NCBI RefSeq assembly: GCF_000820505.1
Contig: NZ_JWJD01000002.1
Span: 85,153-149,152 of the forward strand
Length of the DNA stretch: 64,000 nt
Source of the DNA: Geoalkalibacter ferrihydriticus DSM 17813
GTDB taxonomy: Bacteria > Desulfobacterota > Desulfuromonadia > Desulfuromonadales > Geoalkalibacteraceae
Direction of reading: 5' to 3'
Made by a program: the position numbers and the translations under genes. The notes beneath the pieces are model-generated. The model saw nothing but the letters and a program-made list of their open reading frames with translations, did no database searches and was not told the origin of the DNA. Each line of letters starts with the position of its first letter. Within the stretch, counting starts at the first letter, position 1. Positions 1 through 36,621 of this stretch are shown piece by piece.

Positions 1-118
1 ACCGCAGGGTACGGCGGCATCGCGTGCGGCAAAAACTCACCTGCGGCTCAAACATTTGCCGCAGCACTCAACCGCCGCACCCTGCGGTCCTGTCAGACGT
101 TGCCACTGAATAGTTACC
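1..118 (-). repeat. Palindromic intergenic repeat, copy A (cut by window edge)
   Basis: This stretch, read on the minus strand, matches 35971-36088 without gaps and with about nine differences over 118 positions by eye. It folds on itself: bases 1-17 pair with 72-88 (17 bp, one mismatch on the plus strand that becomes a G-U pair in a minus-strand RNA), and an inner arm TGCGGCAAA/TTTGCCGCA continues the stem. About 19 bases expected from the other copies lie outside the window to the left. Orientation is such that the element would precede a leftward gene beyond position 1. No coding frame is evident. Confidence 0.85.
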
Positions 119-180
119 TGAAAATGAGCTTAGTGGAGTTCGCGACAGAAAAGGTCAGAAAGTTCAGAAAAAAGGCTGGG

Positions 181-6551: not shown

Positions 6552-6687
6552 GGTAACTATTCAACTGCAATGCCTATTCGCAGCTCAGGCCGCGGCGGTT
6601 GAATGCCGCAGTCTATGTCTAGGCCGCAGGCGAGCTTTTGCCGGAAGAGATGCCACCACGGCCTGAGGGTCATGCCAAGCAGTTGCC
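6552..6687 (+). repeat. Palindromic intergenic repeat, copy B (diverged)
   Basis: This copy aligns along its length with 35971-36107, sharing ACTATTCA near the left end, CGGCGGTTGA before the centre, GCCGCAGGCGAG-like bases in the loop and a right end ATGCCAAGCAGTTGCC. Its outer stem is CTCAGGCCGCGGCGG (6584-6598) against CCACCACGGCCTGAG (6653-6667). The stem bases differ from the other copies on both arms, yet pairing is kept apart from two C-A oppositions. The end GGTAACT mirrors AGTTGCC. It ends 27 bases before the start codon at 6715, in the same orientation as that gene. Confidence 0.75.
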
Positions 6688-6714: not shown

Positions 6715-7101
6715 ATGGCTTTTGATGCCGGTATCGTCTTAATTTGGATTTTGTTTCTTGCGTTGTTCCCCTTGGCGTTTTTCTGGTTACGCCGGGCCTG
6801 GAGAATTTTTGTCAAGCGCGACTACTCGGAGGTCGCCCTCAAGCGCGGAGAATCTCCGCCAAACCCGAAGAAATGGGCCCCGGCGACGGGGATCCTCAAC
6901 TTGTTCGCGGGCGCGATCGCACTGTGGATCATTCTCGGCGTCCCCTTGTGGGTCGCGACCGGAATCAGCATCGGGCCTTTTCACGAATTTGATGTATGGA
7001 GCGCCGTGGCAGGCTCGACGATCTGGATCAAAATCTTTGCCGATTTCATTATCAGCCGTCAAGCGCACCCCTTTACCCTGGGCAAAAAAAAGAAGAAGTG
7101 A
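6715..7101 (+). CDS. Small membrane protein, function unknown
   Basis: The 128-residue protein has a clear hydrophobic helix at about residues 6-27 and a longer hydrophobic stretch at about 58-88, probably two helices in all, then a hydrophilic segment ending in five lysines. The start ATG follows GGGAGAG. Its leader includes the palindromic repeat at 6552-6687, directly upstream of the ribosome site. It follows the symporter operon beyond a strong terminator and converges on the next gene with only nine bases between stop codons. I do not recognise the family. A role connected with transport is only a guess from position. Confidence 0.75.
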   Translation: MAFDAGIVLIWILFLALFPLAFFWLRRAWRIFVKRDYSEVALKRGESPPNPKKWAPATGILNLFAGAIALWIILGVPLWVATGISIGPFHEFDVWSAVAGSTIWIKIFADFIISRQAHPFTLGKKKKK

Positions 7102-33191: not shown

Positions 33192-35804
33192 TTATACCAT
33201 TTTCTTAAGTCTATCCAGAACATTCAATGCCTCCAGCGGCGTCAGAACCGACACATCGACTTCGGCAAGCTTGCGGCGTAACTCATCCGCCGCCGAATCA
33301 AACAGCGAAAGTTGCGGACTGGGCACCTGTTCGCGGGCGCGCCCGCGGGCCAGGGCCGGCTGCCCTTCGCCACTGAATTCACCCGCCTCAAGATTGCGCA
33401 GGACCTCTTTGGCCCGCTCCACTACGGCAGGGGGTATTCCCGCCAGGCGCGCCACCTGGATCCCGTAACTGTGACTGGCGCCGCCCTTGACGATCTTACG
33501 CAGAAAAATGACCTGATCGTTCCACTCACGCACGGCGACATTCCAATTCTTGACCCGTTTGCACGTCAGAGCCAGATCAGCCAATTCGTGATAATGTGTC
33601 GCAAATAACGTCTTGGCGGCCACGGAGGCATGCTCATGCAAATACTCGGCCACCGCCCAGGCGATGCTGACCCCGTCGAAAGTCGAGGTACCGCGTCCGA
33701 TTTCATCCAGAATGATGAGGCTGCGCGGCGTGGCGTTGTGCAGAATGTTGGCCGTCTCCGTCATCTCGACCATGAAGGTCGACTGCCCGGAGGCAAGATT
33801 ATCGCTGGCGCCGACCCGGGTAAAAATCCGATCCACAAGGCCGATGCGCGCGGCCCGGGCGGGAACAAAGCTGCCCAGGTGTGCCATCAGGGTGATCAAG
33901 GCCACCTGACGCATAAAGGTCGACTTGCCGGCCATGTTGGGGCCGGTGATGATGAGCAACTGATTGTCCGTAGTATCCAGCAGCACATCGTTAGGTACGA
34001 ACCGCTCACCCAGATTCATGCGCTCAACCACCGGATGACGCCCCTCCTCAATGTGCAGCATCGTGCTCTCGTCGATCTGCGGGCAGACATAGTCGGCTTC
34101 ATGGGCGAGATCGGCAAGCCCAAGCAGCACATCGAGTTCGGCCAGGGCATCGGCCGTCGCCAGCAAGCGCCGGCCCTGCAAGGCAACCTGCTGCCGCACC
34201 TCCTGAAAGAGGTCGTATTCCAGAGCCTGGATGCGCTCCTCGGCCCCCAGCACTTTGTCCTCATATTCCTTGAGGGCGGGCGTGATAAAACGCTCGGCAT
34301 TAACCAGGGTCTGCTTGCGCTGGTAGTCCTCGGGCACCCGCGCCAGATGTGTCCTGGTAATTTCGATATAGTAACCGAATACCTTGTTGTAGCGCACCTT
34401 GAGCGATCCGATCCCGGTGCGCTCGCGCTCCTGCTGTTCGAGGCGCACAATCCAACCCTTGCCTTCACGGCTGATAAGGCGCAGATCGTCAAGTTCGGCG
34501 CTGAACCCGTCGCGAATCAAGCCGCCTTCACGCAACACAAAGGGCGGATCGTCCACCAATGCCTCGGCAATCAGGTCACGCACATCCTCCAAAGGGTCGA
34601 TGACCTGGCCCAGTTGGCAAAGTAGCGGTGCCTCCAGATCGGAAAAAAGGGCGAGGATGCCCGGCACCTTCCCCAGAGACACGCGCAGCGCCGCCAAGTC
34701 CTTGGCGCCGGCGCCGGCCATGGCAATCCGTGCGCCGAGACGCTCCAGGTCATAAACCCCATCAAGACATTCGCGCAGGTCTTCCCGCAGAAGACTTTTC
34801 TCGCGCAACTCGCCCACCGCCTGTAAACGGGCTCGAATCTGCACGGCAACATTGAGCGGATAGTTGATCCAATGGCGCAGTTTGCGCCCGCCCATGGCGG
34901 TGAGGGTGCGATCCATCACCCCCAGCAACGAACCTTTTTTGCGCCCCTCTCCCTGGGTTGCGGTCAATTCAAGATTGCGGCGCGTCGCGGCATCGAGAAT
35001 CAGATAGTCGGCACAGGCATAGGGAGCCAGGCTGCGAATATGCTCCAACCCGCCCTGACGGGTCTGCTGAAGGTAATGCAGAACCGCGCCGGCGGCGCGC
35101 ACCCCGACGACCAGATGTTCGCATCCAAATCCCTGCAGGTTTGAAACCGCGAAAAAATCATGGAGCAAACGCCGCGCCCGGTCCTCCTCGAACACCCATT
35201 CGGGCAGGCGATTAACCAGGCGCTCGGCCAACACCGACTGCAGTTGGGTGGATAAGGACTCAGAGATACCGTCGGCGGAGACCAGAATTTCTCGGGGGTT
35301 GAGTGAAATGATTTCGCTGCGCAACTCATCAAGACCACGGCACTCGGTGACGCGAAACGCGCCCGTGGTGATGTCGACGCACGACAACCCGTACAACTCC
35401 TGTTCACCAGCCGCCAGTGCCAGGAGAAAATTATTTTCCTTGGGTTGTAGATTTTCGCTATCGACCACCAGACCCGGGGTAACCACCTGCACCACTTCGC
35501 GCTTGACGATTCCCTTGGCTTCCCGGGGATCTTCAACCTGCTCGCAAATCGCAACCTTGAAGCCATTGTCCACCAGGCGCGCGATGTAGCCCTGGCTGCT
35601 GTGATAAGGAATACCGCACAGAGGAACCTGCTCGACGGCACCCTTGTTGCGCGAGGTCAGAGTGAGTCCGAGAACCCGCGAAGCGGTCACGGCGTCTTCC
35701 ATGAACATCTCATAAAAGTCGCCGAGCCGAAAAAAGAGGATGGCGTCAGGATGCTGGGACTTGATTTCCAGATACTGACGCATCATGGGGGTGCTGCTTG
35801 ACAT
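33192..35804 (-). CDS. mutS: DNA mismatch repair protein MutS
   Basis: The 870-residue ATPase recognises mismatches. The N-terminal mismatch-binding domain has the Phe-x-Glu motif in LGDFYEMF (about residues 28-35). Connector, core, clamp and lever domains follow. The ATPase contains [13 protein letters not shown] near 620 and [12 protein letters not shown]. The C-terminal region is present, so this is full-length MutS1. The nearby mutL is not in this window. A good promoter lies 39-67 bases upstream. Confidence 0.97.
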
Positions 35805-35871: not shown

Positions 35872-35970
35872 CCAATGAAATCGCCTTAAATCTTCACAAA
35901 TAAGGCAAAAGACTTGACCCTTTTCCATGGCCTAAGCAAAATAGCCGCACCGACAAAAAAATTCAGGAGT

Positions 35971-36107
35971 TGTCACTATTCAGCGGCAACATCCGACAGC
36001 ACCGCAGGGTGCGGCGGTTGAGTGCTGCGGCAAATGTTTGAGCCGTAGGTGAGTTTTTGCCGCACGCGATGCCGCCGTACTTTGCGGTGCATGCTAAACA
36101 GTCACCA
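35971..36107 (+). repeat. Palindromic intergenic repeat, copy C (complete)
   Basis: This is the most complete copy here. Outer arms ACCGCAGGGTGCGGCGG (36001-36017) and its near complement at 36072-36088 (mismatches are G-U in RNA) enclose inner arms TGCGGCAAA (36026-36034) and TTTGCCGCA (36056-36064) with a 21-base loop. A leader with CACTATTCAGCGGCAAC precedes the hairpin, and ATGCTAAACAGTCACC follows it. The copy ends 13 bases before the ATG at 36121, so its last bases abut the AGGAG ribosome site. Confidence 0.85.
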
Positions 36108-36120
36108 GGAGTTTAACTTT

Positions 36121-36621
36121 ATGAGCGACGCCCGAGACCCGGAGTTCGCGGCAGACAACTTCAACCTGCACGATTTGGACGACGAAATTCGCGTCGACGC
36201 TCTCTGCCGGCGTTTTTTGCGCCTGTTCTACGAGGACTTGACGCAAAACCAGGGGCTGGTCGCCGAACAGGCCGCCGCCCTCACCTACGGCGCCGACTAT
36301 TTTCTGCGTGATTTTGTGATTTCCGAACGCCAGGAGAACATCTTTCACATCCCTGCGCAGCGCGTGCGTCAGTTTGCGGGCAACTGGTATATCATCAAGA
36401 ATCTTGAGCCCAACATGAGTGAGCTGAGTGTGCAATTGCAGGGTGTGGCCGCCTTCTATCATTTCTGTGCCCGAGCGGGCCGTGTTTCTGCCGAGCTGGC
36501 GCGGGAAATCGCCCGCCAGTGCGAGGATCTGCCCTTTTACCAGGAGCGCATCGAATCTTTCTGGGACATCAGCGGCGACGGCTATCAACGCTGGGACCAG
36601 GCCTGCAGCTTCAAGGACTGA
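36121..36621 (+). CDS. Hypothetical soluble protein, function unknown
   Basis: The 166-residue protein is acidic at the start and mostly helical, with the segment LCRRFLRLFYEDLTQNQGLVAEQAAALTYG spread over about 30-60. It has no signal peptide, membrane helix or metal motif. The ATG at 36121 has AGGAG nine bases upstream. That site directly follows the hairpin repeat (35971-36107), so the mRNA leader would carry a long stem-loop next to the ribosome site. The gene is followed after six bases by the cation efflux gene. I do not recognise the family. Confidence 0.8.
   Translation: MSDARDPEFAADNFNLHDLDDEIRVDALCRRFLRLFYEDLTQNQGLVAEQAAALTYGADYFLRDFVISERQENIFHIPAQRVRQFAGNWYIIKNLEPNMSELSVQLQGVAAFYHFCARAGRVSAELAREIARQCEDLPFYQERIESFWDISGDGYQRWDQACSFKD

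Follow-up and report, generated by a model that had tools for sequence, protein, structure and literature searches.

Insertion sequences of the ISBst12 group, IS66 family, include ISDge4 of Deinococcus geothermalis, an element which has been observed transposing and whose ends are described as GTGACTACTCAGCA/GTAACTGCTCAGCA, with an 8-bp repeat CCTCGATG (PMC12898284). Among bacteria more closely related to the organism studied here, Geobacter uraniireducens carries the MITE Chunjie (Chen et al., 2008, as presented in the review PMC10969869), which is 178–235 bp long, is present in about 38 copies and has also been reported inside an operon. Multicopy sequences have been described in Geobacter metallireducens, G. 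bemidjiensis and Pelobacter carbinolicus, and some of those in G. metallireducens have been called putative regulatory elements (PMC2700814, PMC2996986, PMC3543383). The G. bemidjiensis paper comments that the implications of the abundance of its multicopy repeats remain to be elucidated (PMC2996986). Correia elements and ERIC are bacterial MITEs that occur in transcripts and alter transcript processing (PMC10969869).

We analysed a palindromic repeat of 134 bp which occurs in a 64 000-nucleotide stretch of DNA from Geoalkalibacter ferrihydriticus DSM 17813 (the window). The repeat is a bacterial MITE: it is short, non-coding and multicopy, has inverted ends and a fixed 8-bp target duplication, and is missing from empty sites in relatives. 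The best explanation, to which we give a probability of about 0.9, is that an ISBst12-like transposase of the IS66 family would have mobilised this non-autonomous transposon, whose copies would have grown to about 117 places in the lineage, duplicating 8 bp of target at each insertion. The repeat shares terminal repeats of the GTAACTATTCAGC type and 8-bp target duplications with the ISBst12 group of the IS66 family (ISDge4 and the loci L251, L252, L253 and L256 described below). Unlike these insertion sequences it measures only 134 bp and has no room for a transposase gene. Chunjie, from a related bacterium, is likewise a MITE; the 134-bp repeat differs from it in size and copy number, the properties on which the two were compared. 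With the multicopy sequences of Geobacter and Pelobacter it has in common, by description rather than by alignment, many copies, a largely intergenic location and a partly palindromic sequence. Correia elements and ERIC belong to other hosts, their ends differ from those of the 134-bp MITE, and it is for them, not for this MITE, that an effect on RNA has been shown. A literature search found no paper on the 134-bp element, although an earlier listing in supplements is possible, and nothing relevant was retrieved with short sequence strings.

The window contains three copies of one palindromic unit, as the first-pass annotation had noticed. The positions it gave were in essence correct, with limits 1–2 bases off those of the genome-wide model. 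Copy C, at 35972..36105 on the + strand, is a full-length 134-bp MITE with a central hairpin and inverted-repeat ends (genome model match C2:121124-121257, 153.2 bits), and the segment 35970-36108 folds with a z of −4.39 (+ strand). Copy B (6553..6686, + strand, 111.3 bits) is a divergent full-length copy that matches the other copies found at 69–78% and has no recognisable target duplication at its ends. Copy A (1..117, − strand, by the genome-wide model) matches copy C at 93% and is the right-hand part of a copy that is interrupted by a single N, the base directly left of the window. The whole stretch is C2:85059-85269, and past the N the copy continues to C2:85059 with redundant sequence. 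The target duplication of copy A (118..125, CTGAAAAT) agrees in 7/8 positions with CTAAAAAT at the opposite end of the copy, which lies outside the window. The same single-N pattern is found at other copies too. Such apparent tandem doublets contain one N and duplicate one stretch of sequence, and we therefore read them as scaffold joins and probably not as biology; the N in copy A would be a scaffold join inside the repeat.

Copies B and C share the strand of their following gene, and copy A precedes a called leftward gene, as had been claimed. The distances to the ATG, previously put at 27 (B) and 13 (C) bases, were measured as 28 and 15, with slightly different ends used. The genes behind copy B (6715..7101, + strand, 128 aa) and copy C (36121..36621, + strand, 166 aa) each have orthologs in all five genomes searched, and neither belongs to a Pfam family. 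A search of the window against Rfam at the gathering threshold gave no match.

The size of the family was determined in the host genome (3.84 Mb, a draft of 23 contigs) with a search model made from 17 copies. It gave 135 matches at E up to 0.01, which merged to 117 places; the weakest of these matches are uncertain, and 130 of them reach E 1e-4. The unit has 13-bp terminal inverted repeats, GTAACTATTCAGC at one end and GTAACTGTTCAGC at the other. With at most one mismatch, the 13-bp end was found 167 times (86 + 81) in the host compared with three times (1 + 2) for the reversed control. These end matches, together with the 135 matches at 117 places, exclude chance. Among the matches listed, at least nine exact 13-bp ends fall in none of the 117 places; two of them (C2:73487 and C2:301006) were inspected and are short forms. 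Such shorter forms, 56–76 bp in length, have kept the ends, and the central hairpin is absent. Sequences of about 60–65 bp with the same ends and without the central hairpin were seen at L222, L196, L185 and L233, and at C2:301006 in L176.

Target duplications were counted for the 99 matches without N in the element or its flanks, the other 36 being excluded; C7:121091-121222, which matched on both strands, is counted twice among the 99. Direct repeats of 8 bp adjoin both ends perfectly in 15 and with at most one mismatch in 35 of the 99 matches, while after shuffling of the flanks the mean was 0.22 for the former (maximum 2) and 0.68 for the latter (maximum 5). Repeats of other lengths (4–7 and 9–12) were perfect in 0–3 of the 99 only. 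The 64 clean matches that show no duplication at this tolerance are taken as older copies or as copies with misplaced ends. In the relatives, an 8-bp repeat matching in 7/8 positions was present at four of the 17 copies tabulated.

A search for PF03050 over 58 genomes, host included, gave 14 matches in seven genomes. Four of these 14 IS66-transposase loci carry the 13-bp ends of the MITE on both sides, namely L251 in G031, L252 in G005, and L253 and L256 in G049. Each of the four elements is about 1.72 kb long. L252 has one mismatch at one of its two ends, and two elements (L251 and L256) are flanked by perfect 8-bp duplications. At the remaining ten loci, some of which are cut short, the 13-bp ends were not both seen, a point against the best explanation. 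The protein of G005 matches DDE_Tnp_IS66. The 23-contig draft of the host genome contains no match to PF03050 and none to the G005 transposase. Since the host assembly thus holds no autonomous partner, we infer mobilisation by an ISBst12-type insertion sequence from the ends and the length of the duplication, and the present copies are probably stranded or only occasionally mobilised. A MITE need not have such a partner in its own genome, but the lack of one counts against the best explanation. Other short repeats with IS66-like ends, GTATCTGTTCAGC and GTAATTATTCAGC, were observed at L104, L105 and L125 (G032 and G041); they have a different inner sequence and are possibly further MITE families.

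Relatives of the host were examined for copies and empty sites. G001, G002 and G003 belong to the same genus as the host and G005 to the same family. At E up to 1e-4 the model matched three times in G001, five times in G002, 13 times in G003 and three times in G005, far fewer than the 130 of the host at this limit, some of these matches in the relatives being the core module alone or another repeat class. G001 and G003 carry no element ahead of the start at the site of copy C. The sites orthologous to those of copies A and B are short in G002, from which copy B is absent, and the C site of G002 (L260) holds a different repeat. Together with the 8-bp target duplications and the IS66-type ends, the empty sites strongly support the earlier suggestion that the element is mobile. 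The repeat at the C site of G002 and at the B site of G003 (L266) is a different small palindromic repeat around TTCAGCATGGGG, which was not found in the window. When the 24 matches of the relatives were compared with the host copies, 17 had no aligned flank of at least 150 bp and three (L277, L282 and L126) were at sites other than those of the host; an insertion site common to host and relative was shown for none of the 24, with four (L113, L115, L272 and L278) giving no clear assignment. L122 (G002) and L279 (G003) are one old copy at the same site (93.6% over 3.1 kb), with decayed ends and a core that has been kept. In a named sequence collection, from which the host's own records may be absent, the core pattern had exact matches in two contigs belonging to a single Geoalkalibacter MAG.

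Copy C has inserted into a Shine-Dalgarno sequence. Its left target-site duplication (35964..35971) is CAGGAGTT and holds the original AGGAG; the right one (36106..36113) is a perfect 8/8 repeat, whose AGGAG at 36107-36111 is the Shine-Dalgarno now standing before the gene, 9 nt from the ATG at 36121. Joining the flanks of copy C in silico gives a normal leader with one CAGGAGTT, and the orthologs in G001 and G003, where the element is absent, have a GGGAG site directly before the start. Copy C thus adjoins the ribosome site because the insertion went into the Shine-Dalgarno, as seen from CAGGAGTT on both sides, and this adjacency merely follows from the place of insertion. Since the target duplication spans the Shine-Dalgarno, the insertion rebuilt the ribosome site. 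With a fresh Shine-Dalgarno between element and start codon, gene 36121 could have stayed translatable after the insertion. Copy C also supplies an upstream in-frame ATG at 36091. As side observations, mutS (33192-35804, − strand) is divergent to the gene behind copy C, and L237 (C9:18618-18689), a short and weakly scoring copy, seems to have duplicated a Shine-Dalgarno as well, with CAGGAG on both sides before an ATG.

A consensus scan revealed a promoter-like site (35914..35942, + strand, TTGACC-17-CAAAAT) upstream of the insertion, and similar sequence is visible by alignment in the orthologous upstream regions of relatives; copy C is therefore probably transcribed. The description of the repeat as a 5'-UTR element is accordingly likely to hold for copy C, on the basis of this predicted site. 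A copy inside a transcription unit, as copy C probably is, would add a stable hairpin to the RNA, and this would most likely affect how stable the RNA is or how it is processed, rather than occlude the ribosome site. In predicted leader folds, the hairpin of copy C stands by itself, and the unpaired probability of the Shine-Dalgarno is 0.27 with the element compared with 0.16 in the joined empty site. Occlusion of the Shine-Dalgarno by the hairpin was therefore rejected, the site being predicted to be at least as accessible as in the joined flanks.

Change in the hairpin core is slower than at the ends of the MITE. In those 41 of the 58 copies whose ends are intact, private changes per site amount to 0.023 in the apex (columns 64–84) compared with 0.062–0.066 at the ends; conservation climbs from the ends to the centre, and the apical loop, not just the stems, is most conserved. 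Across all 58 copies there are 12 private double changes at core pairs, and every one of them restores pairing (300 shuffles gave a mean of 1.41 and at most 6, slid pairings 0–2). The 41 intact copies contain three such changes, all compensated, which is not beyond shuffles (mean 0.83, maximum 4). With only three cases there, the private pairing signal rests on older copies. When all double changes in the 41 copies are considered, 44 of 49 restore pairing (shuffle mean 12.9, maximum 21), which is partly subfamily inheritance. Wobble asymmetry was tried as a proof of RNA-level selection and discarded: the ratio of GU to AC among private stem changes was 30:22, like the control spectrum (p 0.71). 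The slow core and the paired changes are not needed by a purely selfish, decaying MITE and count against the best explanation.

Selection, gene conversion and template switching are all possible causes of the core conservation. Instead of functional selection, gene conversion among the copies together with template switching inside the palindrome may have kept the core, a reading which we consider plausible at somewhat less than even odds and which, as it concerns the core only, is compatible with transposition as a MITE. Conversion would give conservation rising toward the centre, and template switching in palindromes also yields paired changes. It fits that the private compensated changes of the intact copies stay within shuffles and that compensated pairs are present in the outer repeats too, where four of six private double changes among the 58 copies are compensated (shuffles reach 6). 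This reading does not account well for the apical loop, which is conserved beyond the stems, nor for the recurrence of the apex in a different repeat class of other genera, where conversion with the MITE is unlikely.

Selection at the level of the following gene is the claim of another reading, in which the repeat is a regulatory RNA that has spread as a 5'-UTR control hairpin and is kept because it regulates that gene. We regard it as improbable. To place the copies, genes were called by a simple hexamer caller trained on 32 window genes, the starts being predictions. All 117 places lie between called genes (70 co-directional, 28 divergent and 19 convergent), and not one called gene spans a place. 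These location classes occur as expected from intergenic DNA at these loci (p 0.26 by length and 0.39 by count), and starts are not preferred over stops: of the 70 co-directional places, 34 lie closer to the start of the downstream gene and 35 closer to the stop of the upstream one.

Orientation speaks for a regulatory RNA, since 48 sense copies stand against 21 antisense copies among the 69 scorable co-directional ones (p 0.0016), or 43:18 after thinning of neighbouring copies. The ratio is 28:8 for copies of at least 100 bits and 13:7 below 60 bits. However, the bias is gone in copies of 60–100 bits (7:6) and in the relatives (7:6 in 13 co-directional copies, of 17 tabulated, of 24 matches), so that it is shown for the host only. 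There, antisense copies seem to be retained less frequently where the neighbouring genes are co-directional. In relation to the nearer gene, and with few cases, the orientation of divergent copies matches in 16 and does not in 12, and that of convergent copies is the same in 12 and opposite in seven. Also in favour of a regulatory RNA, the + strand folds more stably as RNA than its complement in 47 of 58 full-length copies, the private double core changes of the 58 copies keep pairing well beyond the shuffles, and copy C has its promoter-like site. On the other side, no insertion site is shown to be shared by host and relative, the element leaves the Shine-Dalgarno of copy C no more buried than before, and neither the window nor the nine loci searched gave an Rfam match. 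The first-pass annotation had proposed a spreading translation-control hairpin and a genome-wide tabulation of orientation and distance to the next start. Orientation did prove non-random in the host, while nearness to starts was absent. With 19 of 117 places convergent, no preference for starts and a Shine-Dalgarno that stays open, the proposal is not supported as a general role.

Movement by a Y1 (RAYT) transposase, in the manner of a REP or BIME-like palindrome, as the palindromic, intergenic and high-copy repeat with its apparent doublets might suggest, is highly improbable, since 8-bp target duplications and 13-bp inverted terminal repeats are IS66-like and are not known from REPs, and the doublets with a single N and a repeated stretch look like scaffold joins.

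The apical hairpin module of copy C, ATGTTTGAGCCGTAGGTGAGTTTT (36034..36057, + strand), is a pattern match with one mismatch, for which a mean of 0.00 is expected. The apex has the form ATGTYTGA-(mini-stem)-GAGTTT and lies inside an outer stem of free sequence. Several weak model matches in other genera proved to be a larger repeat which shares the apex alone with the MITE. This repeat is conserved near GTGTGACGCAGCCGG and GGAGGGAACCCG, has a long central hairpin with the apex ATGTYTGA..GAGTTT, and is multicopy in several genera of the host's order. It was seen at L106, L107, L109, L110, L112, L274, L276, L286, L287, L289-L294 and L297-L304. The labels ‘big’ and ‘mite’ on module instances are rough, as at least L101 and L281, which are full-length model matches, are labelled ‘big’.

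The gapped apex pattern was found in 67 of 277 genomes of the class: in 58 of 136 within the host's order and in nine of 141 outside it, with a single match each. The reversed-pattern control hit seven of the 277, once each. In 33 of 35 distinct apex instances, taken from fetched loci outside the host, the mini-stem is fully paired, and its sequence varies freely (GCC/GGC, GGC/GCC, GC/GC). The pattern fixed the conserved parts and not the pairing of the mini-stem; some of the loci of these 35 instances were first found by the pairing-aware model, and the instances are partly related. Rfam gave no match for nine loci at E up to 1, among them the six loci of the larger class that were searched (L106, L109, L110, L112, L274 and L276). 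The module had no match in viral contigs by exact pattern, or in plasmids or phages by BLAST. Similar repeats may exist in other proteobacteria.

The apex could be an undescribed sequence-and-structure module of the Desulfuromonadales, present in at least two repeat classes, selected through recognition by the cell and spread by the MITE with a preference for the sense orientation. We put this forward tentatively, as a possibility that we hold to be on the whole rather unlikely. The recogniser would be a protein, a nuclease or the transposition system, its target would be RNA or single-stranded DNA, and the MITE would be a vehicle spreading this site between genes, with a preference for the transcribed sense.

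The 134-bp element itself is an ordinary kind of mobile element, with one instructive insertion and a moderate orientation bias in the host genome. Copy C illustrates cleanly how a transposon can enter a ribosome-binding site without loss of that site: duplication of the target restores it, and the same single event provides the gene with a hairpin leader. A hairpin module common to separate repeat families across a bacterial order, with a sense-strand bias in the host, merits follow-up.
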